Shown here piece after piece: positions 35,450 through 53,797 of a stretch of 64,000 bases of DNA. The stretch's first letter is position 1. Every line of letters begins with the position of its first letter. This stretch comes from Piscinibacter caeni. Its GTDB lineage: Bacteria; Pseudomonadota; Gammaproteobacteria; Burkholderiales; Burkholderiaceae_C. The position numbers and the translations under genes were made by a program. Location: NCBI GenBank assembly GCA_003265685.1, contig KZ836103.1:25138-89137 (forward strand), written 5' to 3'. The notes under the pieces are model-generated. The model saw only the letters and a list, made by a program, of their open reading frames with translations. It did not search any database and was not told the DNA's origin.

Positions 35450-38395
35450 ATGGCCTGCGTCTGGGTGGTCCTGGCCGAGGGCGACGCGGCGGCGCTGCGC
35501 GAGCGCGTGCTCGTCGGCCTGCCGCGGCTGGGCTACGACGGCTGGCTGGCGCGCTCGCGACTGCCCGATGCCGTCGCGGCGCAGCAGGCGCAGGCCGCCG
35601 CCGCCTGCCCGGTGCTGCTGGTGGTGGCCACGCCGTCGCTGCTTGGCCTGCCGGCGCTGGCCGAAGAGCTGGCGCTGGTGGCGGCGCATCCGGGCACGCG
35701 GCTGGTCGTGCGCCTGGGCGCGGCGGTCGAACTGCCGGCGCCGCTGGCCGCGCTGCCGGCGGTCGACTTCGGCGCTGTGGAGGATCTCGCCCTGGCCCGT
35801 CGCCGGCTGGCCGCCCTGCTGCCCGTGTCCGCGCCGGCGGATCCCGCGCGGGCGGCCGGGCTGCCGATCGAGAACATCGAGTGGAACGAGGGCCTGTTCA
35901 GCGAGGCGCTGCAGCAGGCGGCCCGGCGCCACGACGCGGCCGGTGCCGGCCTGCTGCTCGGCGCCTTCGAGCAGCACCTGGCACGGCGCGCCTGGCCGTA
36001 CCCGGAGACGCACGCGGTGAACGACCTGCAGGCGCTGCGCCGCGAGCGCGCCTTTGCCGCGATGCGCCGCCTCGCCGAACTGCAGCTCGCCTCCGGCAGC
36101 CGCGGCGACAAGCTGCGCCGCCTGTATGCCCAGGCGCTGATCGAGACCGGCGCGCTCGAGCAGGCGCTCGAGGTGCTGCAGTCGATCATCGACGGGGCCG
36201 ACTCGAGCCCGGACGAGATCGACGAGGCGCACGGCCTGGTCGGCCGCGTATTCAAGCAGCGCTATGTCGACACGCCGGAGGCGGCCGAGGCGCCCGGCTG
36301 GCTGCAGCGCGCGATCGCCGCCTACGGTGACGTGTTCGAGCGCAACCGCGAGCGGGTCTGGCATGCCGTCAACGCCGCCAGCTGCCTGCTGCGCGCCGAA
36401 CGCGACGGCGTGCTGCACGACGCCGGACCGCGCGCCCAGGCGATCGCGCTGGAGGTGCTGGACCGGCTCGCGCAGCGCGAGCGCGAGAAGCCGCTGGACG
36501 TGTGGGACTGCGCCTCGCGTGCCGAGGCGCTGATCGCGCTGCAGCACTATGCCGGCGCGCAAGCGGCGGTCGAGGCCTACCTGCGCCACCGCGACATGCA
36601 TGCCTTCGAGGTGTCGTCGACGCACCGCCAGTTCGACCAGCTGCTCGAGCTCGGCCGGCGCCAGCCCGGCGGCTCGATCCTGGCGCGCCTGCAGGCGGCG
36701 GTACTGCGCCACCGCACGCGGCTGGCGCCGGCCGGCGCGGCCGGCGCGGCCGACAGCGCGCGCCGCACGCTGCTGATCCGCCTGGCCGATGCGCAGTGGC
36801 AGCCGGCCGGCATCCCGGGCCTCGTGCTGCAGTCGCGCCTGGGCACGGTGGTCACCGCGCAGGGCAGCGACGCCAGCGTGCAGGCGCTGCTGGCCGATCC
36901 GAAGGTGATCTCGGTCGACCAGAGCCGCCCGGTCGCCGCGGCGCTCGACTGCGACCGCTCGCTGCCCTTCATCGGCGTGGCGGCGCAGTACAGCGCGCCG
37001 GCCGGGCCGTTCGAGGAGCGCGGCGACGCGGCGCTGGTGGCGGTGATCGACGACGGCATCGACGTGCTGCACCAGGCCTTCCGCGACGCCGCCGGGGCCT
37101 CGCGCATCGTCGGCGTGTGGGACCAGACCGCCGCGGCGGGCACGCCGCCGCCGGGCTTCGGCTACGGCCACTTCCACGACGCCGCCAGCATCGCCGCCGC
37201 GGTGGCCGCGGGGCAGTGGCCGGCCGGGCTGCCGCGCAACGACGAGGGCCATGGCACGCACGTGGCGAGCATCGCGGCCGGCCGCGCGGCCGGCGCCTTC
37301 GCGGGCGGCGTGGCGCCGCAGGCGAAGCTGCTGGTGGTGATCGCCGCTGCCTCCGGGCCGACCGGCTACTCGGGCAGCCACATCGACGCGCTGGCCTTCA
37401 TCGACCGCATGGCCGACGCGCTCGGCCTGCCGGTGGTGGTGAACCTGAGCCAGGGCATGAACGCCGGCGCGCACGACGGCAAGTCGGCGCTCGAGGTGGC
37501 CTTCGACGCCTTCGCAGAATCCGGCCGCAAGCCGGGCCGGGTGGTGGTGAAGTCGGCCGGCAACGAGCGCGACAAGGGCGGCCATGCGCTGCTCACCGTG
37601 CCCACCGACGGGCTGGATGCATTGCGCTGGCAGCGCAGCCCGGATGCCGACGCCGTCGAGCGCCTGGAGCTGTGGTGGAGCAGCGCCGACCAGCTCGCCT
37701 TCCGCCTGCGTGGCCCGGCCGCCGCGCACTGGACCGACTGGGTCGACGCGGCCCACCCGGAGCGCAGCGGCAGCCTGCCCGAGGGCGGGCCGTACCGGCT
37801 GGTCTTCACGCAGCGCCATGTGGACAACGGCGACAGCCTGCTGGCCATCGAACTCGGCAGCGAGGCCGCGCCGGCCGCGCCGGGCGAATGGGCGCTCGAG
37901 GCGCAGGGCATCGACGCGCCCGAGGGCGGCGAGGTGCATGCGTGGCTCGAGCGCAGCCCGGGCGCGCCGAGCCGCTTCCTCGACCATGCGGACGAGAACG
38001 TGACGCTCAGCATCCCGGGCACCGCGGCCAGCGTGATCGCGGTCGGCGCGGTCGAGGCGGCCAGGCCGGTGCGGGTGGGCAAGTCCTCGTCCTACGGGCC
38101 GACGCGCGACGGGCAGCGCAAGCCGCTGGTGTGCGCCCCCGGCGTCGGCGTGAAGGCCGCACGCGGCGGCACCGACGACGGCGTGATGGCCAAGGACGGC
38201 ACCAGCATGGCCGCGCCGCACGTGGCCGGCGCGATCGCGCTGCTGCTGTCGCGCTGCGCCAAGGCGGGCCGCGTGCCCAGCGCCAACCAGATCGCCGGTG
38301 CGCTGCGACAGAAGACGCAGAACTTCAACGGCCGCTGGGACCGCGGCCAGGGCTGGGGCGTGCTCGACGTCGCGGCGCTGCTGGCCGCGTTCTGA
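35450..38395 (+). CDS. TIR-like/TPR/S8 subtilase fusion protein, candidate conflict-system effector
   Basis: A 981-residue protein. Residues about 1-115 look like a TIR-type alpha/beta domain (ACVWVVLAEGDAAALRERV, CPVLLVVATPSLLG), without an obvious catalytic glutamate. Residues about 145-410 are helical repeats resembling the TRAFs-binding/TPR-S region (KLRRLYAQALIETGALEQAL, GLVGRVFKQRYVD). Residues about 525-980 are an S8 peptidase with an intact site: D534 (VAVIDDGID), H601 (EGHGTHVA), N705 (SAGNERD) and S919 (GTSMAAPHVAG). It has no signal peptide, so the protease is probably cytoplasmic. Families that join TIR-like or TPR-S sensors to effectors are proposed to be anti-phage or suicide systems; that role is inference here. 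Confidence 0.8.
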   Translation: MACVWVVLAEGDAAALRERVLVGLPRLGYDGWLARSRLPDAVAAQQAQAAAACPVLLVVATPSLLGLPALAEELALVAAHPGTRLVVRLGAAVELPAPLAALPAVDFGAVEDLALARRRLAALLPVSAPADPARAAGLPIENIEWNEGLFSEALQQAARRHDAAGAGLLLGAFEQHLARRAWPYPETHAVNDLQALRRERAFAAMRRLAELQLASGSRGDKLRRLYAQALIETGALEQALEVLQSIIDGADSSPDEIDEAHGLVGRVFKQRYVDTPEAAEAPGWLQRAIAAYGDVFERNRERVWHAVNAASCLLRAERDGVLHDAGPRAQAIALEVLDRLAQREREKPLDVWDCASRAEALIALQHYAGAQAAVEAYLRHRDMHAFEVSSTHRQFDQLLELGRRQPGGSILARLQAAVLRHRTRLAPAGAAGAADSARRTLLIRLADAQWQPAGIPGLVLQSRLGTVVTAQGSDASVQALLADPKVISVDQSRPVAAALDCDRSLPFIGVAAQYSAPAGPFEERGDAALVAVIDDGIDVLHQAFRDAAGASRIVGVWDQTAAAGTPPPGFGYGHFHDAASIAAAVAAGQWPAGLPRNDEGHGTHVASIAAGRAAGAFAGGVAPQAKLLVVIAAASGPTGYSGSHIDALAFIDRMADALGLPVVVNLSQGMNAGAHDGKSALEVAFDAFAESGRKPGRVVVKSAGNERDKGGHALLTVPTDGLDALRWQRSPDADAVERLELWWSSADQLAFRLRGPAAAHWTDWVDAAHPERSGSLPEGGPYRLVFTQRHVDNGDSLLAIELGSEAAPAAPGEWALEAQGIDAPEGGEVHAWLERSPGAPSRFLDHADENVTLSIPGTAASVIAVGAVEAARPVRVGKSSSYGPTRDGQRKPLVCAPGVGVKAARGGTDDGVMAKDGTSMAAPHVAGAIALLLSRCAKAGRVPSANQIAGALRQKTQNFNGRWDRGQGWGVLDVAALLAAF

Positions 38396-38601: not shown

Positions 38602-40302
38602 CTATCTCAGTATTGACGAGATGTCCTTCAACGCCGTGCGCAGTCGGCCGGCCAGGAAGTCGATGTGCTGGCGGGGCGTCCCGTACTCCTTGAGGAGGTC
38701 TTGGCGGACCTGCGCCGCTCCCGCGCCACCAGCATGAGCGGCCAATCTTGTGCGGAAGAACTGAAGGTCGCCAAGCGGCTTCACAAGTGCATCTGCCTGA
38801 TCTAGATCAGTGCCTCCTGCAACTAAGGCTTCCCGTAGCCACTTGATAGAGCCCATCGTGGGCTCGCCCTTGGCGCCGGCGGCGACAGCAATCTTTTTCA
38901 GCTCATCCTTGATGAGGCTTTCGTTGATGACCTTGTTCATATCGATCAGCGTGTCGTCCCAGATCTTGTTGGAAGCGGTCAGCGGATAGTGGAGTTGCTC
39001 GACAAGTGATGGCTGCTTCAGCTGGAACCAAAGATGGTTGTTCCGTGAGAGTTCTCTGAGCGTCGACTTCAGGGCGTCAAGGTTATCGGGCGTGACATTC
39101 CAACTGCCCTCGAAATCTGTCTTGAACGACCGATCAGATATGGTGCCCTTCGGCGCCTCGTTGAACGCTTTCCAGTAGCGCTGTTCAGCGATGGGCAAGT
39201 AGCCCAGGTATCGTATGTACGTGTGCACCTGGCCCGCAGCGTTGACATCGTAGCTCTGCAGGGACCAAGCGTGCCGGCATGTGATAGACCGGTGCTTAAG
39301 TTGGTACTTGTCCGGGTCGGCTTTGTAGCGGTCCAGCACATCGGGCCGAAAGAACACTGGCGACGTCTGGAAGGGTAACGGCGAGTCCTTCTGAAAGTAC
39401 GAGGCCTGGGCGTCAGGAGAACTGCTGCACTCGACGACTTTCCCGTTCTTCCAGTCGAGGATAGTGAAGGTCTCGTACTCCTTCGGAGCAGCTTCGACCG
39501 AGGCTTCGGCTATCCCGCGCTCTTGCGCCGTCTGGTCAGGGCCCATGAAATAGACGCCTCTGGCGTAGCCCCCGGCCCCGCTCATCCCGCAGCGATAGAT
39601 GACCCCAGCCTTCGGATCACCGACCTCCTCACCGTCCGCTCGCTCCGATGCTGACAGTCCTGCCGGTATCGGTATGGCGTCGAACATCTGGACCAAAGAC
39701 GTTCCACTGGCAGACATGTGTCGTTGAAGGAGGTCGTAGTCCACCCAGACCAAGTGCGCCGATGCACCGTGCTCGCAGTTTCCCGCGCGCTCGACCCCTG
39801 CGAATGCCACAACCTCACCGCTCTCATCGAACCTGCACCACGCCTGCTTCTCTTCGAGCCAATGCAGGCCATGCGCCAGCGCCAGCTCCTGTGAGAGCTC
39901 GAAGTACGTGCGCCCTTCAAGCCTAGCGTCAAACACCCGGGCAAATACTAGCTGGGCCGCCCCGATCAAAGGTGCAGGTTGTCTCTCTCGCCAAGGATGG
40001 ACCATCTCGACTTGGGCAGGCTGGCCGCCCCCTGTGACCAGCGAGCAGCTGGGAGCGTCGTACGGATTTCCCTCCCAATCAACGATGCCCTGCAGGTCGC
40101 CGGCGAGCTTCGACGTCTCGACCAGCACCGAGTGCACAAGGATGGAGGTCATCCCATGCGTGGCCGACGCGTAGAGGGCGATCCGACCGCTTCGCTGCTG
40201 TCCTTTCAGAAGTGCGATCAAGTCGTCGTTTTGGGCAGCAGTGCCGGTGGCAGTTTGTTCCTCGGCCGTGCGGGTCAGGCGCAGCAGGTCATCAGCGTTC
40301 AT
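38602..40302 (-). CDS. Unknown protein with C-terminal HEPN-like motif, lower GC
   Basis: A 566-residue protein of unrecognised family. No membrane segments or signal peptide are seen. Near the C-terminus FFRTRLAAHAGG contains R517-x5-H523, the RX4-6H pattern of HEPN ribonucleases, in a helical context. The N-terminal 250 residues are beta-rich. Base use is visibly lower in GC than all neighbours, with many A/T-ending codons, which points to recent acquisition. It converges on the subtilase-fusion gene across 206 bases. The ATG at 40302 was preferred over a TTG three codons upstream. A defence function is inference. Confidence 0.7.
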   Translation of the reverse strand: MNADDLLRLTRTAEEQTATGTAAQNDDLIALLKGQQRSGRIALYASATHGMTSILVHSVLVETSKLAGDLQGIVDWEGNPYDAPSCSLVTGGGQPAQVEMVHPWRERQPAPLIGAAQLVFARVFDARLEGRTYFELSQELALAHGLHWLEEKQAWCRFDESGEVVAFAGVERAGNCEHGASAHLVWVDYDLLQRHMSASGTSLVQMFDAIPIPAGLSASERADGEEVGDPKAGVIYRCGMSGAGGYARGVYFMGPDQTAQERGIAEASVEAAPKEYETFTILDWKNGKVVECSSSPDAQASYFQKDSPLPFQTSPVFFRPDVLDRYKADPDKYQLKHRSITCRHAWSLQSYDVNAAGQVHTYIRYLGYLPIAEQRYWKAFNEAPKGTISDRSFKTDFEGSWNVTPDNLDALKSTLRELSRNNHLWFQLKQPSLVEQLHYPLTASNKIWDDTLIDMNKVINESLIKDELKKIAVAAGAKGEPTMGSIKWLREALVAGGTDLDQADALVKPLGDLQFFRTRLAAHAGGAGAAQVRQDLLKEYGTPRQHIDFLAGRLRTALKDISSILR

Positions 40303-40474
40303 ACAGCGCAAATTTAGCCGGGTGGACGGCCGGTTGGCTGCGCCACCTGCATCTCATGCCGAAGATGGGCGCCCGCTTTCCGGCGTTGATGTGCGACTGT
40401 CCGACTTCCGCAACGGGTCGACTGCTGCCTACCGGATTTGTGTGATTGAGAGCAAATCCGTATGAGCCCGCCGC

Positions 40475-43927: not shown

Positions 43928-44596
43928 ATGCGAATCCTCTTGGCCGAAGACGAGCGCGAGCTGGCCACCTGGCTGGTGCGCGCGCTCGGCCAGAGCGATT
44001 TCCAGGTCGACTGGGTTGACGACGGCCGGATGGTCCGGCGCAGCCTCAAGGCCACGCGCTACGACGCGCTGATCCTGGACCTCGGCCTGCCGGGGGTCGG
44101 CGGCCACGACGTGCTCGCCGAGCTGCGCGACGCCGACGAGCGACTGCCCGTGCTGATCCTCACGGCGCGCGACTCGCTTATCGAGCGCGTCAGCACGCTG
44201 CACGAGGGAGCCGACGACTTCCTCGCCAAACCCTTCGACATCGCCGAACTCGAGGCCCGCCTCGTGGCGCTGGTGCGTCGCGCCCGCGGCAGCGACCGGC
44301 CGCGCTTCGCCTGCGGCCCGCTGGTCTACGACAGCGGCAGCAAGCAGTTCACGCTCGGCCACGAGGCGCTGAACCTCACGCCGCGCGAGCATGCGGTGCT
44401 GCGAACGCTGATCCAGCGCAGCGGCGAGCCGCTGTCGAAGCAGGAGATCGTCGAGCGCGTGTTCTCCGACGAGCAGGACGTGCAGCCCGACGCGGTCGAG
44501 GTGCTCGTGCACCGGCTGCGCAAGCGGCTGCAGGCCACGCCGGTGGTGATCCGCACGCTGCGCGGCCTGGGCTACGTGCTCGAAAGCGCGGCGTGA
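43928..44596 (+). CDS. tctD: OmpR-type response regulator, TctD-like
   Basis: A 222-residue regulator: receiver domain (MRILLAEDERELATWLVRAL, phospho-Asp in LILDLGLPG, Lys in FLAKPFD) and a winged-helix output domain (NLTPREHAVLRTLIQRSGE, EVLVHRLRKRL). It pairs with the next gene and precedes a tricarboxylate-type transporter, the classical TctDE arrangement. The likely binding site is the tandem repeat at 46038-46059. Confidence 0.9.
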   Translation: MRILLAEDERELATWLVRALGQSDFQVDWVDDGRMVRRSLKATRYDALILDLGLPGVGGHDVLAELRDADERLPVLILTARDSLIERVSTLHEGADDFLAKPFDIAELEARLVALVRRARGSDRPRFACGPLVYDSGSKQFTLGHEALNLTPREHAVLRTLIQRSGEPLSKQEIVERVFSDEQDVQPDAVEVLVHRLRKRLQATPVVIRTLRGLGYVLESAA

Positions 44597-46020
44597 GCGG
44601 TCGGTCGATCGTCGGCGATGCCGGCCGCGACTGGCACCGCTACGGCCTGCGGCGCACGCTGCTCACCGTGCTGTCGGCAGGGCTGGCCGTGGTGCTCGCC
44701 GCGGCGATGGTGCTCGCCTGGCGCACGGCGGCCGAGGCGGCGGACGCGGCCTACGACCGCTCGCTGCTGGGCGCGATCAAGTCGATCGACGCCAACATCT
44801 CCACCGCCAGCGGCGGGCTGGGGGTCGAGCTGCCGTACCGCATGCTCGAGTTCTTCCAGCTCACCGCCAGCGGCGACGTGTTCTTCCGCGTCGCGAGCGA
44901 AGACGGGTTGGTCGCGGTCGGCGACGTCGACCTCCCCCCGCCGCCGGCCAACCTGCCGACCGGCCAGCCGCACTTCGTCGACACGACGGTGCTCGGCCAG
45001 CCGGTGCGCATCGGCGCGTACGCGCGGCTGCTGGATCCGCCCCTCGCCGGGCAGGACGGACCGCAGCGCGTCATCATCCAGGTCGCCGAGGCGACGCAGT
45101 CGCGCGCGCAGTTCACCGAGGCGTTGCTGGTGCAGGCGCTGCAGCGAGACCTGGTGCTGATCGCCGTCGCGCTCGGGCTGCTGGCGCTCGGAGTCACCTG
45201 GGCGCTCGCGCCGCTCGAACGGCTGCGCGGCGAGGTCGCGGCGCGCCGCCCCGACGACCTGACGCCGATCGCCTCGCTGGGTGTGCCGGCGGACGTGCGG
45301 CCGCTGGTCGACGCGATCAACCACCATGTCGACCGCTACCGCCGCATGATCGAGTCGCGCCGGCGCTTCGTCGACGACGCGTCGCATCAGCTGCGCACGC
45401 CGCTGGCGACGCTGGCCACGCAGGTCGGATTCGCGCAGCGCGAGACCGACCCCGCGCAACTGCGCGAGGTGCTGGGCGCGGTCAAGGCGCAGCTCGACGA
45501 AACGATCCGCCAGACCAACCAGATGCTCGCCCTGGCCCGCGCCGACAGTGCCGAGCTGCAGCCCGAGCCGGTCGACCTGGTCAGCTTCGCCGGCGACGTG
45601 GCGCGCGCGTGGTGGTCGGAGGCTCGCCAGCGCGGCGTCGACCTCGGCCTCGAGACCCATGTGCAGACGCTCGTGGTGTCCGTCCACCCGGGGCTGCTGC
45701 GCGAGGCGATCGGCAACCTGCTGCACAACGCGATCCGCTACACGCCCGGCGGAGGACATGTCACGCTGCGCGTCGACGCGACCGAAGACGCGGCGCGGCT
45801 CGCCGTGGTCGACGACGGGCCGGGCATCCCCGAGGCGGAACGCCCGCGCGTCGGCGAGCGCTTCTTCCGGGCGAGCAACGTGTCGCAGCCCGGCAGCGGG
45901 CTCGGGCTGGCGATTTCGCGATCGATCGCCGTGCGCCACGGTGGCCGGCTCGACATCGGCGCCAAGGCCGAGGGTCCAGGGCTGATCGCGACGATCGTCC
46001 TGCCACGTCCCAAGGGTTAA
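44593..46020 (+). CDS. tctE: Sensor histidine kinase, TctE-like
   Basis: A 475-residue kinase: TM1 at about 20-42, a periplasmic sensor domain to about 185, TM2, then the H-box DDASHQLRTPLATLATQVG with the phospho-accepting His, an N-box (NLLHNAIRYTPGG) and G-boxes (DDGPGIPEAER, GSGLGLAISRSIA). It starts with GTG overlapping the tctD stop (GTGA). It should sense the carboxylate carried by the transporter downstream. Confidence 0.9.
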   Translation: MSGRSIVGDAGRDWHRYGLRRTLLTVLSAGLAVVLAAAMVLAWRTAAEAADAAYDRSLLGAIKSIDANISTASGGLGVELPYRMLEFFQLTASGDVFFRVASEDGLVAVGDVDLPPPPANLPTGQPHFVDTTVLGQPVRIGAYARLLDPPLAGQDGPQRVIIQVAEATQSRAQFTEALLVQALQRDLVLIAVALGLLALGVTWALAPLERLRGEVAARRPDDLTPIASLGVPADVRPLVDAINHHVDRYRRMIESRRRFVDDASHQLRTPLATLATQVGFAQRETDPAQLREVLGAVKAQLDETIRQTNQMLALARADSAELQPEPVDLVSFAGDVARAWWSEARQRGVDLGLETHVQTLVVSVHPGLLREAIGNLLHNAIRYTPGGGHVTLRVDATEDAARLAVVDDGPGIPEAERPRVGERFFRASNVSQPGSGLGLAISRSIAVRHGGRLDIGAKAEGPGLIATIVLPRPKG

Positions 46021-46108: not shown

Positions 46109-47104
46109 ATGCGCATGACCCCGACCCGAGCCGCCGCCCTTGCCGCCAGTTTCGTGCTGGCCGCCTCGCTGGCCCACGCGGGCCCGCTCGACAAGACCGA
46201 ATGCATCGCCCCGGCCAAGCCCGGCGGCGGCTTCGACCTGACCTGCAAGCTGGCGCAGAGTGCCTTGATGGACGCCAAGGCCATCAGCGACCCGATGCGC
46301 GTCACCTACATGCCGGGGGGCATCGGCGCCGTGGCCTACAACGCGGTGGTCGCGCAGCGCCCCGATGCGGCGAACACGATCGTCGCCTTCAGCGGCGGCT
46401 CGCTGCTGAACCTGGCGCAGGGCAAGTTCGGCCGCTACAACGAGAACGACGTCCGCTGGCTGGCCGGCATCGGTGCCGACTACGGCGCGCTGGTGGTGGC
46501 CGAGAACTCGCCGTTCAAGTCGGTGAAGGATGTGCTGGCCGCCATCAAGGCCGACCCGACGAAGGTGGTCTTCGGTGCCGGCGGCACCGTCGGCAGCCAG
46601 GACTGGATGAAGGCTGCGCTGACGGCGCGCGCCGCCGGTGTCGACCCGAAGAGCATGCGCTTCGTCGCCTTCGAGGGCGGTGGCGAGGCGATGACCGCCT
46701 TGCAGGGCGGTCACATCCATGTCTTCACCGGCGACGCCGCCGAGACTGCACAGCAGATGAAGGCCGGCACCAAGGTGCGCATCCTGGCCGTCATGTCCGA
46801 CAAGCGTCTGCCGGGCGACCTGGCCCAGGTGCCCACCGCCAAGGAGCAGGGCATCAACGTCGAGTGGCCGATCATCCGCGGCTTCTATCTCGGCCCCAAG
46901 GTCAGCGACGCCGACTACAAGGTCTGGGCCGAGACCTTCGCCAAGGTCATGGCCACGCCTGCCTACGACAAGTTGCGCAACGAGCGGGGTCTCTACCCGT
47001 TCTCGATGACCGGCGCCGAGATCGACGCCTACGTCAAGAAGCAGGTCGACGCCTACCGCAAGCTGGTTGCGGAGTTCGGCCTCGCCGTGGCGCAGGCCAA
47101 GTAA
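46109..47104 (+). CDS. tctC: Tripartite tricarboxylate transporter substrate-binding protein
   Basis: A 331-residue Bug/TctC-type periplasmic protein. Signal peptide RAAALAASFVLAASLAHA, then KTECIAPAKPGGGFDLTCKL, the family carboxylate-binding motif, YMPGGIGAVAYN and VVFGAGGTVGSQDWM. It captures a di- or tricarboxylate for the TctAB membrane part. A second ATG at 46115 is possible. It is the first gene of the transporter operon behind the repeat at 46038. Confidence 0.9.
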   Translation: MRMTPTRAAALAASFVLAASLAHAGPLDKTECIAPAKPGGGFDLTCKLAQSALMDAKAISDPMRVTYMPGGIGAVAYNAVVAQRPDAANTIVAFSGGSLLNLAQGKFGRYNENDVRWLAGIGADYGALVVAENSPFKSVKDVLAAIKADPTKVVFGAGGTVGSQDWMKAALTARAAGVDPKSMRFVAFEGGGEAMTALQGGHIHVFTGDAAETAQQMKAGTKVRILAVMSDKRLPGDLAQVPTAKEQGINVEWPIIRGFYLGPKVSDADYKVWAETFAKVMATPAYDKLRNERGLYPFSMTGAEIDAYVKKQVDAYRKLVAEFGLAVAQAK

Positions 47105-47197: not shown

Positions 47198-47644
47198 ATG
47201 AGTGACCGCATCCTCGGCGCGGTGTGCGTCGTCGCGTCCGCCGGCATGGCCTGGGCCGCACGCGACTATGCCGCCGCCATCTCCTACGAACCCGTCGGCC
47301 CGCGTGCCTTCCCGCTGCTGCTGGCCGGCCTGATGGCCGTCGGCGGCAGCTGGCTGGTGCTGCGGCCGACCCTGCGCGGCGGCGTGCTGCGCGACGTGCC
47401 GCTGAAGGCCACCGCGTTCACCGCGCTCGCGGTGCTCGTCTACGCGCTGCTGTTCGAAGTCCTCGGCTTCGCGCTCGCCACGGCGGTGATGGCCGTGCCG
47501 GTGGGCCTGGCCTTCGGCGGCAGCTGGAAGCAGTCGCTGGCGGGCGGCGCCGGCCTCGGCCTGACGCTGTACTTCCTGTTCGACAAGCTGCTCGACGTCG
47601 TGCTGCCCACCGGGGTGCTGTCGGTCGTGCTGGGAGGCCGCTGA
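47198..47644 (+). CDS. tctB: Tripartite tricarboxylate transporter small membrane subunit
   Basis: A 148-residue protein with four hydrophobic segments (GAVCVVASAGMAWAARDYAA, YALLFEVLGFALATAVMAV and others) and the TctB-type motif YEPVGPRAFPLLLAGLMAVG. It pairs with TctA. Its stop overlaps the tctA ATG by one base. The 93 bases before it carry no feature I recognise. Confidence 0.87.
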   Translation: MSDRILGAVCVVASAGMAWAARDYAAAISYEPVGPRAFPLLLAGLMAVGGSWLVLRPTLRGGVLRDVPLKATAFTALAVLVYALLFEVLGFALATAVMAVPVGLAFGGSWKQSLAGGAGLGLTLYFLFDKLLDVVLPTGVLSVVLGGR

Positions 47645-49158
47645 TGGACACGCTGCAACACCTGCTGCAGGGCTTCGGCGTCGCGCTGGCGCCGGTCAAT
47701 CTGCTGATCGCCGCCGCCGGCGCGCTGATCGGAACCGTGGTCGGCCTGCTGCCCGGACTCGGGCCGATCAACGGCGTCGCGATCCTGATGCCGCTGGCCT
47801 TCGCGATGGGCCTGCCGCCGGAGGCCTCGCTGATCCTCCTGGCGGCGGTCTACATCGGTTGCGAATACGGCGGGCGCATCTCGTCGATCCTGCTCAACGT
47901 CCCCGGGGACGCCGGCGCGATCATGACCGCGCTCGACGGCTACCCGATGGCGCGTCAGGGCCTGGGTGGTGTCGCGCTGTCGATCTCGGCCTGGAGTTCG
48001 TTCATCGGCTCGCTGGTCGCCACCGTCGGCATCGTGCTGTTTGCGCCGCTGCTCGCGAGCTGGGCGCTGTCCTTTGGGCCTGCCGAGTACTTCGCGCTGA
48101 TGTGCTTCGCCTTCGCCTGCATCGCCGGCCTGATGGGCGACGCACCGATGAAGGCCGGCCTGGCCGCGGTGATCGGCCTGTCGCTGTCGTGCGTGGGGCT
48201 CGACTCGAACTCGGGCGTGTACCGATTCACCGGCGGCGACGTGCACCTGTCGGACGGCATCCAGTTCGTCGTGGTCGTGATCGGCGTGTTCTCGATCAGC
48301 GAGATCCTGCTGATGCTCGAACAGCATCACAACAGCGCCGGCCTGATCACCAACACCGGCCGCGCGCTGTTCAACCTGAAGGAGATGGCACACACCTGGT
48401 GGGGCACGGTGCGCTCGAGCGTCGTCGGCTTCGTCGTCGGCGTGCTGCCCGGGGCCGGCGCGACGATCGCCAGCGCGATGACCTACTCGATGGAAAAGCG
48501 CCTGACCGACAAGGAGGGCACCTTCGGCCAGGGCGACATCCGCGGCGTCGCCGCACCCGAAGCGGCGAACAACTCGGCGGCCACCGGCTCCTTTGTGCCG
48601 ATGCTGACGCTCGGCGTGCCGGGCTCCGGCACCACGGCGGTGATGGTGGGCGCGCTCTCGCTCTACAACATCACGCCCGGCCCGGCGCTGTTCACGCAGC
48701 AGCCCACGCTGGTCTGGGGGCTGATCGCCTCGCTGTTCGTCGCGAACCTGCTGCTGCTGTTCATCAACATCCCGATGGTCGGCGTGTTCACGAAGGTGCT
48801 GAACGTGCCGAACTGGGCGCTGGTGCCCGGCATCCTCGCCGTCAGCGCGGTCGGCGTCTACGCGGTCCATGCGACCACGTTCGACCTGCTGCTGATGACC
48901 GCGCTCGGCGTCGCCGGCTGGCTGCTGCGCAAGCAGGGCGTGCCGATGGCGCCGCTGATCCTCGGCTTCGTGCTCGGCGACATGATGGAGCAGAACCTGC
49001 GCCGCGCGCTGTCGATCACCAACGGCGACGCCGCGATCCTGGTCGGGAGCCCGATCTCGATCGGCTTGTGGATCGGCGCGGCCGCCATGCTGCTGGTGCC
49101 GGCGCTGCTGCGCCTGCTCAGGCAACGCCGCGCGGGCGCCCCCGCTGCGGTGCTCTAG
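47644..49158 (+). CDS. tctA: Tripartite tricarboxylate transporter large membrane subunit
   Basis: A 504-residue membrane protein with about 11-12 segments and the TctA hallmarks GLLPGLGPINGVAILMPLAF, YIGCEYGGRISSILLNVPGD and GVLPGAGATIASAMTYSME. It uses an ion gradient to import the bound carboxylate. The ATP-citrate-lyase-like genes follow after 21 bases, so import and activation are likely one operon. Confidence 0.93.
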   Translation: MDTLQHLLQGFGVALAPVNLLIAAAGALIGTVVGLLPGLGPINGVAILMPLAFAMGLPPEASLILLAAVYIGCEYGGRISSILLNVPGDAGAIMTALDGYPMARQGLGGVALSISAWSSFIGSLVATVGIVLFAPLLASWALSFGPAEYFALMCFAFACIAGLMGDAPMKAGLAAVIGLSLSCVGLDSNSGVYRFTGGDVHLSDGIQFVVVVIGVFSISEILLMLEQHHNSAGLITNTGRALFNLKEMAHTWWGTVRSSVVGFVVGVLPGAGATIASAMTYSMEKRLTDKEGTFGQGDIRGVAAPEAANNSAATGSFVPMLTLGVPGSGTTAVMVGALSLYNITPGPALFTQQPTLVWGLIASLFVANLLLLFINIPMVGVFTKVLNVPNWALVPGILAVSAVGVYAVHATTFDLLLMTALGVAGWLLRKQGVPMAPLILGFVLGDMMEQNLRRALSITNGDAAILVGSPISIGLWIGAAAMLLVPALLRLLRQRRAGAPAAVL

Positions 49159-49179: not shown

Positions 49180-50463
49180 ATGCAACTCACCGGACTGCTG
49201 CACGGCGCGCCACTGCTGAGGCACGTCGACTTCCCCACGGCCGAGGTGCTCGGCCCCGACGCCAGCGAGGACCAGATCCAGGACCTGATCCGTCGCCACG
49301 GCCAGGTCTTCGTCAAGCCGCTGTTCAAGGGCGGCGTCGGCAAGAAGGGCAAGTCCGGCCTGATCGGCCGGGCCAAGGACTTGGCGCAGGCGCTCGCCGA
49401 GAAGGAGCGGCTCTACTTCGCCGAGCACCGTCACGGCAACGCGGTCGCGAAGGCCAACGGCGTGACCTTCGAAGGCGGCGTGCCCGCCGAGCACGAGGTC
49501 TACTTCTCGATCACCGACGACACCCGCTTCCGCGCACCCACCATCACGATCACGCACAGGGGCGGCGTCGACATCGAGGAACTCGGCAAGCACGAGATCG
49601 CGACGATCCCGTTCGATGCGCTGACCGGCCTGAAGGCCTTCGTCATCGCCAACGCGCTCGCCGACATCGGCGCACCGAAGGAGGTGGTCTCGCCCCTGGT
49701 GCAGCACCTGCCCAAGCTGTGGGAGCTGATGCATCACTACGGCATGACCACGCTCGAGCTGAACCCGATCCGCATGCGCCCCGGCCGGGACGGCCGCCTG
49801 ACGCCGGTGGCCTGCGACTTCAAGTGCGGCTTCGACCGCGACGACCCGCGCGTGGCCCGGCTCAGGCTGCCGGCCCACCTGTTCGCCGCCGACGTCGGCG
49901 CGTTCGAGCAGGAGGTCAACGAGCTGCGCACCCACCAGGGCCAGAGTGACGTGTTCGTGATCAACGAGCGCGGCACGATCCTCGCGCCGACCTTCGGCGG
50001 CGGCGCGAACAGCCTGGTCACCGAGGTGCTCGGCGACGCCGCCAGCATCAGCTCCGACTTCGGCGGCAACCCGCCCTACGAGAAGATGAAGGCGGTGGCG
50101 CGCATCTGCTACCGCCACTTCCTCGCGCAGAGCAACGTGCTGTTCATCATCGGCGGCAAGTCGAACAACACCGACATCCACGAGACCCTGCGCGCGATGG
50201 GCGACGCCCTGCGCGAGCATTTCTCGACGCACGGCGCCACGCCGCTGTACGTGGTGGTCGGCCGCGGCGGGCCGAACCTCGTGCGCGGCTTCGGCGCGCT
50301 GGCCGACACCTGCGAGGCGCTCGGCCTGCCCTACCGCTTCTTCGGCTTCGACAGCGCGATCTCCGAGGTCGTGAACTACGCGAAGAAGATCGACGAATGG
50401 ATGAAGGCCGGCGGGCGCGAGCAGATCGCGCGCCGGCTCCACATCGGCGCCACCGTGGCGTGA
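49180..50463 (+). CDS. ATP-citrate-lyase-like beta subunit (ATP-grasp)
   Basis: A 427-residue ATP-grasp protein of the succinyl-CoA synthetase beta / AclB type: VFVKPLFKGGVGKKGKSGLI for nucleotide binding, LNPIRMRPGRDGRL with metal-binding Asn, and a C-terminal CoA-ligase-like domain (FGGGANSLVTEVLGDAASIS, IIGGKSNNTDIHETLRAMGD). It should use ATP to phosphorylate the partner histidine and form an acyl-CoA. It is 11 bases upstream of its partner gene. Confidence 0.8.
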   Translation: MQLTGLLHGAPLLRHVDFPTAEVLGPDASEDQIQDLIRRHGQVFVKPLFKGGVGKKGKSGLIGRAKDLAQALAEKERLYFAEHRHGNAVAKANGVTFEGGVPAEHEVYFSITDDTRFRAPTITITHRGGVDIEELGKHEIATIPFDALTGLKAFVIANALADIGAPKEVVSPLVQHLPKLWELMHHYGMTTLELNPIRMRPGRDGRLTPVACDFKCGFDRDDPRVARLRLPAHLFAADVGAFEQEVNELRTHQGQSDVFVINERGTILAPTFGGGANSLVTEVLGDAASISSDFGGNPPYEKMKAVARICYRHFLAQSNVLFIIGGKSNNTDIHETLRAMGDALREHFSTHGATPLYVVVGRGGPNLVRGFGALADTCEALGLPYRFFGFDSAISEVVNYAKKIDEWMKAGGREQIARRLHIGATVA

Positions 50464-50474
50464 AGGAGAGCAAT

Positions 50475-53186
50475 ATGCACGCCCGAGGCATTCCCGACCT
50501 TCCCTACTACCTGGGCATCGGCTCGCTGGCCGACCTGGCCACCCGCGGCAACCGCGTCTGTGTCCTCAACATCCTCGGCGGCGAATCGCGCCAGGTCACG
50601 CCGACGAGCCACGTCTTCTCCGGCGGCAACGTCGTGTTCGGCACCTCGCCGGGCCGCGGCGGGCAGGTGCTGCCCACCGCGATCGGCGACATCCCGGTGT
50701 TCAACAGCGTGCGCGAGGGGCTGAACGCCGGCCACGCGTTCGACACCGGCGTCGTCTACCTGCCGCCCGCGGGCGTGCGCGACGGCGTCGCCGAGCTCAT
50801 CCGCGTCAACCCGGGGCTGCGCAAGATCGTCATCGTGACCGAGAAGATCGCCGTGCACGACGCACGCGAGATCCGCGCGATGGCGCAGGGCGCCGGCGTG
50901 GACGTGATCGGCGGCAACTGCCTGGGCGTGGCCGACGCCTGGAACCGCACGCGCATCGGCGGTGCGCTCGGCGGCGACCATCCGGAAGAGACGCTGCTGC
51001 AGGGCACGGTCGCGATCTTCTCGAACTCGGGCGGCTTCACGACGACGATCGCGCAATACCTCGCGACCGAGGGCTGGGGCACGACGACGCTGGTCTCGTC
51101 GGGCAAGGACGTCTACATCCATTACGCGGCGCGCGACTTCGCGCACGCGCTGCGCCACGACGGCCGCTCGCGCGCCGCGGTGCTATACGCCGAGCCCGGC
51201 GGCTACTACGAGCATGCCGTCGACTGGGGCAAGCCGGTGGTCGCCTGCGTCGTCGGGCGCTGGAAGTCCAAGCTCACGCGCGCGGTCGGCCACGCCGGCG
51301 CGATGGCCGGCTCGGGCGACAGCGCGGCCGACAAGGAACGCTGGTTCATGGAGGCGTTCGGCGTGGACGCGGTCTTCACGCCGGAGGCGCCGGTCGTCTC
51401 GAAGAAGGGCGCTGTCGTCACGAACATCGCGCACATCCCGGCAGCGCTGACGGCGGTGATGGCGCTGTCGGGCGCGAAGCCCGACTTCGCGTCGCGCGGC
51501 AGCCTCGCGCTCAAGCCGTGGATGGCCAACGACCAGGGCCTGGTATTGCCGGCCGGGCTGGCGCTGGAGCCGGTGACCGCGCCGGAGCCCTACGCGGCGC
51601 AGTTCGCCGGACTCAGGCGCCAGGTCGGCGCGGTGATCGCGCGCCAGAACATGAAGGACCGGTCGGGTGCGTCGGTGATGGACCCGAGGACGCAGGTCAC
51701 CTCGGTGCACGGCCACTCGGTGCTCGAGCTCGCGCTGCAGCCGCTGCAGGCCAACTTCGCGCTGCCCCTGGTGCACGAGGGCGCCGGTCCGAACGACCGC
51801 GCCCTGCTCGACATCGCGGTCGCCGCCGAGGTGAACCTGGTCGGCACGCCGATGCTCGCTGCCGCGGAGGCGGCGCGCGAAGGCGGCAACTCGCCGAACA
51901 CCGTGATGGCCGCGGCGGTCACGATCGTCGGGCCCAGGCGCGTCGAACGGGCGCTCGCCTGCAGTCGCGCGCTGATCGACCTGTTCGTCGGGACCTCGCT
52001 GAAGGAAGGCCACCATGTCGACTTCGACCTGTCGAGCGTGAAGCTCGACGCCGCGACGCGGGCGCTGTTCCTGGCGCGCGACGACGAGGCGGACGACTCG
52101 CACCCCGAGGCGATGCTGCGCGCGGTGCGCGATCGCGGCGCGAAGTCGGTCTTCCTCGACCTGCTGCTGAAGCAGGGCGGGCGGCTGTCGCGCGACGCGA
52201 TCCTCGCCGCGATCGCGACGACCATCGCCTGGGGCCCGCTGGTGCGCAAGCGCATCAGCCGGCTGACCGCGGAGACGCTGCCCTGGTACCTGCGCCTGTA
52301 CGGCACGATGGTCGGCGCGTCCATCCCCGCGCCGCTGCACCAATGGGGATCGCTGGCCGGCATCTCGCAGGCCGAGCGCTACGGCTCGTGGACCATGGCC
52401 GACCTGTGCTTCCTGGCGATCACCGGCCAGAAGCCGACGCCCGAGCAGGCGCTGCCGCTGCAGATCCTGATCGGCCTGCTGATCAGCAACGGGCCCGGCT
52501 CCATCACCGCGCAGGGGGCGAAGGGCGCCGTCGCCGCCGACGGGCCGCAGACGCCGGGCCGCGTGCAGATCAACAAGGCGATGGCCGGCTTCCTGACCCA
52601 CAGCGGCTACAGCCACGGCGGCAACGGCTACGAGGGCATGGCCTTCCTGCTCGAGCAGTTCCGCGGCATCGACCTTTGCGACCCGACCGATCCGGCGCAC
52701 GGCATCGACCTGAAGGCAATGGCGACCGACTTCGCGAAGGCCTACAAGGCCGAGAAGGTGGCCGCCAAGGAACTCGGCCAGGAGATGCGGGCGCTGCCGG
52801 GGGTGCACCACCCGGTGTTCAAGGGCAAGCCCGTGAACCACGATCCGCGCGAGCGCTTCATCGCCGGGTTCCTCGCCGACCGCAAGCAGTACAACGTGTT
52901 CCACGCCTACTACGGCGAACTGGTGCAGGCCCTCTACGACGAGGGCGCGACGCCTTACGTGTTCTGCGTCAACGTCGACGCGGTGATCGCCGCGCTGCTG
53001 CTCGGCGTGCTGTGGACCGACTACCGCAGCGGTGCCCTCGGCGAGCGTGAACTCGAGACCGCCGCGTTCAACGTCTTCCTGTACGGGCGGATGATCGGTG
53101 CCGCCGCCGAGATCGACGACCACCTGAACCGCGGCCGGAACATGGACACGCGCACCCCCGAGGCGAACTGCGCGCACGTCCTGTGA
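50475..53186 (+). CDS. ATP-citrate-lyase-like alpha subunit with citryl-CoA-lyase domain
   Basis: A 903-residue protein. Residues about 1-330 are a CoA-binding/ligase module with the phospho-histidine H273 in VGHAGAMAGSGDS. The C-terminal third (about 640-903) is citrate-synthase-like: LISNGPGSITAQGAKGAVAA, HHPVFKGKPVNHDPRERF (H778/H779), NVDAVIAALLLGVLW (D835) and GRMIGAAAEIDDHLNRGR. By my alignment the position of human ACLY H900 (ADHGPAVSG) is N672. A middle region of about 300 residues has no counterpart in the 608-residue AclA I recall from Chlorobium. It probably makes and cleaves a carboxylate-CoA; citrate itself is not assured. Confidence 0.75.
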   Translation: MHARGIPDLPYYLGIGSLADLATRGNRVCVLNILGGESRQVTPTSHVFSGGNVVFGTSPGRGGQVLPTAIGDIPVFNSVREGLNAGHAFDTGVVYLPPAGVRDGVAELIRVNPGLRKIVIVTEKIAVHDAREIRAMAQGAGVDVIGGNCLGVADAWNRTRIGGALGGDHPEETLLQGTVAIFSNSGGFTTTIAQYLATEGWGTTTLVSSGKDVYIHYAARDFAHALRHDGRSRAAVLYAEPGGYYEHAVDWGKPVVACVVGRWKSKLTRAVGHAGAMAGSGDSAADKERWFMEAFGVDAVFTPEAPVVSKKGAVVTNIAHIPAALTAVMALSGAKPDFASRGSLALKPWMANDQGLVLPAGLALEPVTAPEPYAAQFAGLRRQVGAVIARQNMKDRSGASVMDPRTQVTSVHGHSVLELALQPLQANFALPLVHEGAGPNDRALLDIAVAAEVNLVGTPMLAAAEAAREGGNSPNTVMAAAVTIVGPRRVERALACSRALIDLFVGTSLKEGHHVDFDLSSVKLDAATRALFLARDDEADDSHPEAMLRAVRDRGAKSVFLDLLLKQGGRLSRDAILAAIATTIAWGPLVRKRISRLTAETLPWYLRLYGTMVGASIPAPLHQWGSLAGISQAERYGSWTMADLCFLAITGQKPTPEQALPLQILIGLLISNGPGSITAQGAKGAVAADGPQTPGRVQINKAMAGFLTHSGYSHGGNGYEGMAFLLEQFRGIDLCDPTDPAHGIDLKAMATDFAKAYKAEKVAAKELGQEMRALPGVHHPVFKGKPVNHDPRERFIAGFLADRKQYNVFHAYYGELVQALYDEGATPYVFCVNVDAVIAALLLGVLWTDYRSGALGERELETAAFNVFLYGRMIGAAAEIDDHLNRGRNMDTRTPEANCAHVL

Positions 53187-53431
53187 CGGGCGCGCTGCCT
53201 GCAATCCTGTCTCCGGCGCCGCGTGGGTGAACCGGAATGTCCGGCATCCCATCGACCCGCGCAGGATCGGAGGAAGCGGGCGTCCCGACCCCCCCATCGG
53301 CCGGATCTCCACGGCCGTCGGCGCAGCCCGCCGGGAGCCGAACGCCCGCTCCCCGCGACGCGGCCACATGGCACACTCGATCGACGCGCGGCCCGGACCG
53401 GGCCGCCGAATCCCGCTCAGAGGAGACGCCG

Positions 53432-53797
53432 ATGCTGACGATGGAGAAGACGGCCGACTACGTGAAGCGCTGGGTCGCCGCGTTCGAGTCGAAGGACCTG
53501 GATCGCGTGCTGGCCTTCTACACCGACGACGTGATCTTCCACTCCCCGCTGATTGCGCGCCTGAGCCATGACCCCAGCGGCACCGTCCGCGGCAAGGCGG
53601 CGCTGCGCGCCTACGTGAAGAAGGGCTTCGAGGTCTTCGATCACATCAAGTTCACCGTGCTCGACGTGCTGCGTGGCGTCGACAGCATCGCGATCCACTA
53701 CAAGGGCATCACGGGAACGCATGTCGTCGAGGTGCTGTTCTTCGACAAGGACGGCATGGTCCGCGAGTCGTACGTGCACTATGCCTCTCCCGAGTAG
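53432..53797 (+). CDS. SnoaL/NTF2-like protein
   Basis: A 121-residue NTF2-like protein: YVKRWVAAFESKDLDRVLAF, DDVIFHSPLIARLSHDPSG and VVEVLFFDKDGMVRESYVHY. Such proteins are isomerases, hydrolases or ligand binders; no function is assigned. An AGAGGAGA site precedes the ATG. The 245 bases between the lyase gene and this start hold nothing I recognise. Confidence 0.82.
   Translation: MLTMEKTADYVKRWVAAFESKDLDRVLAFYTDDVIFHSPLIARLSHDPSGTVRGKAALRAYVKKGFEVFDHIKFTVLDVLRGVDSIAIHYKGITGTHVVEVLFFDKDGMVRESYVHYASPE

Follow-up and report, generated by a model that had tools for sequence, protein, structure and literature searches.

The DNA stretch analyzed here (the window) comprises 64,000 nucleotides of the Piscinibacter caeni genome. 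On its forward strand, genes for a TctD-like response regulator (43928..44596, with Response_reg and Trans_reg_C domains), a sensor histidine kinase whose 2CSK_N sensor was assigned by a domain match (44593..46020), a TctC solute-binding protein (46109..47104; PF03401, 5.1e-23), TctB (47198..47644; PF07331, 1.9e-19), and a TctA permease (47644..49158) are followed by a pair of genes that we refer to as beta and alpha. The top NCBIfam match of the regulator was TctD, at 241.6 bits, which is under the cut-off of that model (337). The TctA assignment is based on a PF01970 match above the cut-off, at G000:C3:72838-74100 (47701-48963 of the window). The beta subunit (49180..50463, +) contains ATP-grasp and citrate-binding domains (PF08442, 5.6e-14, and PF16114, 2.1e-13, both above Pfam cut-offs). 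The alpha subunit (50475..53186, +) is 903 residues long, and its ATG start codon at 50475 is located directly 3' of an AAGGAG site.

Three parts were distinguished in the alpha subunit, all encoded on the forward strand. A ligase half resembling the alpha subunits of succinyl-CoA synthetases (SCS) and citryl-CoA synthetase was delimited by a profile match to 6hxq_A (50520..51479, approximately residues 16-335); it includes the predicted phosphohistidine H273 (51291-51293), a histidine in 90/90 rows of the family alignment. A putative degenerate citrate-synthase-homology (CSH)/citryl-CoA-lyase domain, CSH1, was placed by modeling and hhalign at 51588..52277 (approximately residues 372-601, with an uncertain C-terminal edge, perhaps at residue 618). 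A second, conserved lyase domain, CSH2 (52278..53183, residues 602-903), was assigned through NCBIfam model NF004869 and hhalign.

Other genes in the window were also noted. A SnoaL-like gene (53426-53797, +) lies 3' of alpha. A 981-aa ORF at 35450-38392 (+) combines a TPR-S sensor domain (PF20308) with a subtilase domain (PF00082), its C-terminal part matches the PADLOC model 'subtilase', and its product is possibly a conflict or defence protein. Beside it, a 569-aa ORF at 38602-40311 (-) has a GC content of 0.55-0.65, compared with ~0.71 for the window, and gave no Pfam match at 1e-5 and no PADLOC match at 0.01.

The family and its ligase half

The best 80 of 127 relatives found in a scan of genome contigs were taken, each matching at least 892 of the 903 alpha residues. 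Together with the window protein, six further loci, and three plasmids, they form an alpha alignment of 90 rows, 88 of which are distinct (L002 is identical to L031, and L003 to L033); the beta alignment contains 87 rows, 85 of them distinct. The alpha proteins fall into two subfamilies, with ~68-95% and 58-62% identity to the window protein, and both are present in one genome (G004) of the same genus. The distribution of the family among genomes is patchy: a match covering alpha wholly or for the most part was found in seven of 199 genomes, the source genome included (one of the seven matches ends at a contig end), while an eighth genome contains the C-terminal end of alpha only, at contig edges. 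Alpha was also present in 19 of 72,556 plasmid records (E 1e-60), and is labeled as a CoA-binding or hypothetical protein in those records whose gene labels were checked. A literature search, mainly of openly readable papers, revealed no title or abstract opening describing this family among the matches listed.

The nearest PDB relative of both subunits was Hydrogenobacter citryl-CoA synthetase. The alpha ligase half matched 6hxq_A at 3.8e-42 by profile, and the full-length alpha model matched the same chain with a Z of 27.3 over the ligase half; the best match of beta was the large subunit, 6hxq_B. The runners-up were succinyl-CoA synthetases for alpha and an ATP-citrate lyase (ACL) for beta. 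The beta motifs GGKSNNT and RGGPN, to which we ascribe a citrate-binding role, align with GGTANNT and RNGPE of 6hxq_B and likewise with the ACL motifs, and each of their positions is invariant in 87/87 beta rows, except for the serine (S in 83 rows, A in 4). NCBIfam ligase and lyase scores of the pair were under the curated cut-offs, which counts against assignment as an ATP-dependent citrate-cleaving enzyme. The residue equivalent to E599 of human ACL (ACLY) was considered as a further difference and dropped: a check of the numbering placed it at alpha E123, which is a glutamate in 89 of 90 rows, with one gap.

The predicted CSH2 active site

The relation of CSH2 to citryl-CoA lyases (CCL) is remote. 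Its match to the NF004869 citryl-CoA lyase model (4.1e-7, 29.6 bits) is under the 212-bit cut-off, and an HMMER comparison of the CSH2 profile with PDB sequences returned no lyase or synthase even at E 10, its two matches being spurious; this remoteness counts against a citrate-cleaving enzyme. Profile-profile comparison by hhalign gave a score of 80.0 with a set of nine CCL-like proteins (shuffle maximum 23.8), and very weak similarity, 27.5 over 58 columns, with citrate synthases (CS).

Active site residues were compared in a joint MAFFT alignment of 14 alpha family members, the nine CCL-like proteins, none of which reaches the NCBIfam lyase cut-off, and twelve CS. The four columns of interest, those of N672 (52488..52490), H714 (52614..52616), H779 (52809..52811), and D835 (52977..52979), are those that we take to be H238, H274, H320, and D375 in pig CS numbering. 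The N672 column contains histidine in all 21 CS and CCL-like proteins, and the H779 column in 20 of the 21. In the H714 column, histidine is found in 12/12 CS, while the nine CCL-like proteins have F (6), H (2), or I (1). The D835 column is likewise D in 12/12 CS, with T (6), D (2), or S (1) in the CCL-like proteins, so that the CCL-like set itself is not all standard. Arginines in the columns of R792 and R872 are conserved in 12/12 CS. When the CSH2 and CCL-like profiles were aligned with each other, SNG of the alpha family paired with EHG, and the H714 stretch with a Phe-bearing stretch. Within the alpha family, H622, N672, H709, H714, H779, R792, D835, and R872, as well as H273 of the ligase half, are each invariant in 90/90 rows.

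The initial annotation had proposed, from alignment by eye, that the lyase domain lacks one of the three catalytic residues of ACLY, with asparagine in place of H900. The substitution itself was confirmed: N672, in SNGPGSITAQ, occupies the H900 position in all rows, by both alignment methods. The equivalents of H975 and D1026 are kept, as had been suggested, and are H779 and D835; of the two histidines offered for H975, H778 and H779, the latter is the equivalent, residue 778 being variable (H in 53 rows, N in 37) and differing between the subfamilies, both of which have N672 and H714. The claim that a catalytic residue is missing stands in part only. The histidine of the H900 column is indeed absent, but the CS counterpart of this column is H238, a substrate-contact residue, while the H274 position retains a histidine, H714. 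True citryl-CoA lyase (6hxp) has histidines in all three histidine stretches as well as the aspartate. In Chlorobium ACL, phenylalanine is found in the H274 stretch (gprfgga, compared with gsahgga) and the other three residues are kept; human ACLY presumably also has phenylalanine at this place. Thus, CCL has all four residues, ACL is without H274, and the present family is without H238. As judged from the alignments, H714, H779, and D835 reproduce the H274/H320/D375 set of CS and CCL, and H238 alone became asparagine, which suggests a site with a different layout from that of ACL, and not one that has merely lost a residue. In published work, His235, His238, His274, and His320 are named as CS active-site histidines (PMC4524684), and H900 and R1065 of ACLY are named among residues stabilizing CoA near D1026 (PMC10115795). 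The full-length alpha model (mean pLDDT 76, pTM 0.59) is of low confidence at residues 674-681 and 687-696, beside N672, which counts against a citrate-cleaving assignment.

Gene context and the probable reaction

Gene context was studied in 81 loci, i.e., the window and 80 relatives, using tblastn (E 1e-10, at least half of the query covered). The beta gene was found in 79 loci, TctA in 25, TctC in 28, a TcuC-like transporter in 19, an SBP_bac_11-type binding protein in 15, a PrpF family protein in 12, TcuA in 6, TcuB in 7, and a sensor kinase in 31; the sole yardstick for these counts is the source genome, which carries four TctA genes and one PrpF gene in 6.87 Mb. Of the 81 loci, 63 contained one or more of the genes searched for (transport, sensor, or tricarboxylate). 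The remaining 18 loci, 10 of them under 15 kb and 8 longer, contained none, which counts against a role in tricarboxylate use. In three Paraburkholderia loci (L093, L104, and L107), a LysR gene, TcuA, TcuB, and TcuC directly precede the beta-alpha pair; the genes were named from the L107 proteins, with the names extended to the other two loci by cluster, and gene-order calls are crude, with some neighboring genes merged. One SBP_bac_11 cluster member matches molybdate-binding proteins in the PDB; an aconitate isomerase of Pseudomonas is, we assume, of this type. Two PrpF superfamily proteins, TarA and TbrA, are aconitate isomerases according to one report (PMC11495376).

Additional genes were observed at some loci. 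A 4HBT thioesterase gene was present in 13 of the 81, in several of them 3' of alpha (L043, L047, L052, L053, L061, L091, and others); its product might rescue stalled citryl-CoA. On the conjugative plasmid pUSP3 of Aminobacter sp. MSH1 (L134), the pair lies 3' of several consecutive SDR/oxidoreductase genes and of a gene for a glutathione-dependent alcohol dehydrogenase, with no tricarboxylate gene annotation within the 16.7 kb examined.

The gene context is consistent with a supply of citrate from citrate itself, aconitate, or tricarballylate, and together with the invariant citrate-type beta motifs it favors citrate as the substrate. We consider it probable that beta-alpha is an enzyme of Proteobacteria that splits citrate with ATP and takes part in the uptake and catabolism of citrate, aconitate, or tricarballylate. 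The host genome already carries a citrate synthase gene, which leaves no evident need for citrate cleavage at the expense of ATP and counts against this assignment; our guess is that carbon is saved as acetyl-CoA and oxaloacetate.

A different substrate is unlikely, though it accounts for several observations. Another hydroxy-tricarboxyl-CoA or hydroxyacyl-CoA (2-methylcitrate, homocitrate, citramalate, or similar) would be cleaved, with N672 as a specificity change at a position whose CS counterpart contacts the substrate. The two subfamilies have somewhat different neighborhoods and differ at H/N778; 2-methylaconitate and 4-oxalomesaconate isomerases belong to the PrpF family as well, and the best match of the PrpF protein of locus L054 is 4-oxalomesaconate tautomerase (466 bits, above the cut-off of 440). 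However, N672 and H714 are common to both subfamilies, and TcuA, which acts on tricarballylate, occurs in each of them (3/49 and 3/32 loci). The tricarballylate route leads to cis-aconitate, and hence to citrate.

It is also quite improbable that catalysis ends with the CoA ester, an option offered in the initial annotation, with beta-alpha acting as a citryl-CoA synthetase whose lyase module is dead and kept only for assembly or CoA loading. Asparagine in a column that is otherwise histidine in 21/21 proteins would agree with such an activity, as would the closeness of the ligase half to citryl-CoA synthetase, whose partner lyase is a separate protein, and an allosteric role argued for the CSH module of ACLY in one study (PMC10115795). 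On the other hand, H714, H779, D835, R792, and R872 show no variation in the 90 rows, making a dead site unlikely in CSH2, in contrast to CSH1, and when nine CCL-like proteins were used as tblastn queries (E 1e-3) against the 81 loci, no separate CCL-like gene was detected; both matches obtained lie inside alpha.

The putative first CSH domain

Extra residues in the middle of alpha, about 300 by the earlier estimate, are borne out by comparison with the Chlorobium ACL alpha chain, which has 617 residues in the PDB. The C-terminal two thirds of the full-length model match citrate synthases (e.g., 3tqg over residues 394-888, Z 25.9). When residues 360-601 were modeled alone from 61 sequences (m988ea851410d; pLDDT 78, pTM 0.72), the top fold match was 6hxp (Z 13.6, 184 aligned residues, rmsd 3.7), and the 22 best VIA rows all fell in the lyase domains of CCL, ACL, or ACLY, with Z of 11.8-13.6, where values below ~13 may be chance in helical folds and two rows alone exceed 13; citrate synthases followed at Z 8.9 and lower. 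Foldseek also placed 6hxp first (E 1.7e-4), as the sole match below 0.001. Given the caveat on Z, more weight is put on the uniformity of the match list and on the comparison of the CSH1 and CSH2 profiles. The latter gave an hhalign score of 47.9, while control scores were at most 21.5 among 60 column-shuffled profiles and 35.9 among 150 block-shuffled ones; a reversed profile gave 16.8, and CSH2 compared with the ligase half gave 12.5. Direct hhalign comparison of CSH1 with the CCL-like set (18.0) and CS (14.5) was at noise level, shuffles reaching 25.3 and 21.2, and so CSH1 is tied to the lyase fold via CSH2 and via its own model. In the alignment with CSH2, gaps fall at H714 and H779, and an aspartate, D574 (52194..52196; D in 84/90 rows), is found at the D835 place.

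These sequence and model comparisons indicate that CSH1 is most likely a degenerate duplicate of the lyase domain. That the middle of the chain is instead an unrelated helical insertion, as the noise-level direct profiles, a Foldseek E of just 1.7e-4, and Z values mostly within the range of chance might suggest, is hardly credible, since the CSH1-CSH2 score exceeds all controls and the best 22 rows, all lyase domains, stand above the citrate synthases. The role of the degenerate duplicate is probably structural, in pairing with CSH2 of the same chain or in holding the oligomer. A more specific arrangement, in which dead CSH1 and live CSH2 would pair inside one chain as a pseudo-dimer, the holoenzyme being alpha2-beta2 and not alpha4-beta4, with cleavage by the His-His-Asp set of CSH2 and asparagine at the substrate-contact place, is tentative and, in our judgment, rather doubtful.

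Proposed mechanism and relation to known enzymes

Judging from sequences and models, the pair is best read as a synthetase fused, in effect, to a doubled lyase. The ATP-grasp unit of beta and H273 of alpha would activate citrate as citryl phosphate, which the SCS-alpha-like half would hand to CoA, yielding citryl-CoA as in citryl-CoA synthetase. CSH2 would then split citryl-CoA into acetyl-CoA and oxaloacetate using H714, H779, and D835, with N672 presumably at the position where CS normally has the substrate-contacting H238, and CSH1 remaining as a worn second copy, probably structural.

The place at which ACLY cuts citryl-CoA, the CSH module or the ligase half, is disputed (PMC10115795). The present family and ACL have retained different histidines of the CS/CCL set, and the occurrence of conserved and degraded CSH copies in one chain provides a natural contrast for mutants and structures; the family could thus help settle where this enzyme class cuts its substrate. 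If the pseudo-dimer arrangement holds true, the pair would represent an ATP-citrate lyase found in nature that, by its own sequence, argues for the CSH module as the site of cleavage, the matter in dispute for human ACLY. The family also points to an unassigned enzyme by which soil-dwelling and plant-associated Proteobacteria would use citrate, aconitate, and tricarballylate.

Among the closest known systems are the citryl-CoA synthetase and CCL of Hydrogenobacter thermophilus (6hxq, 6hxp). The ligase halves are the closest in sequence and fold, CSH2 keeps the H274-, H320-, and D375-place residues of the CCL, and the same CCL is the best fold match of CSH1. Unlike in H. thermophilus, where the synthetase is a two-subunit ligase without a lyase domain and the lyase is a separate protein with histidine at the H238 place, the lyase-like domains are here fused to the ligase, doubled, with one copy degenerate, and asparagine replaces that histidine. 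With Chlorobium ACL (6hxj) and human ACLY, the pair shares the ATP-grasp/citrate-binding beta subunit, the fusion of an SCS-alpha half with its predicted phosphohistidine to a C-terminal CSH/lyase domain, and the histidine and aspartate at the H975 and D1026 places. It differs from them in having N and not H at the H900 place and two CSH domains where ACL and ACLY have one per alpha chain, and from Chlorobium ACL also in having histidine instead of phenylalanine at the CS H274 place and an alpha chain longer by ~290 residues. The missing H900 histidine and the two CSH domains set the family apart from ACL proper as a variant. With citrate synthase, it has in common the His-His-Asp set at the H274, H320, and D375 places and the two arginine columns (R792 and R872), and it is distinguished by asparagine at the H238 place and by fusion to an ATP-dependent ligase.
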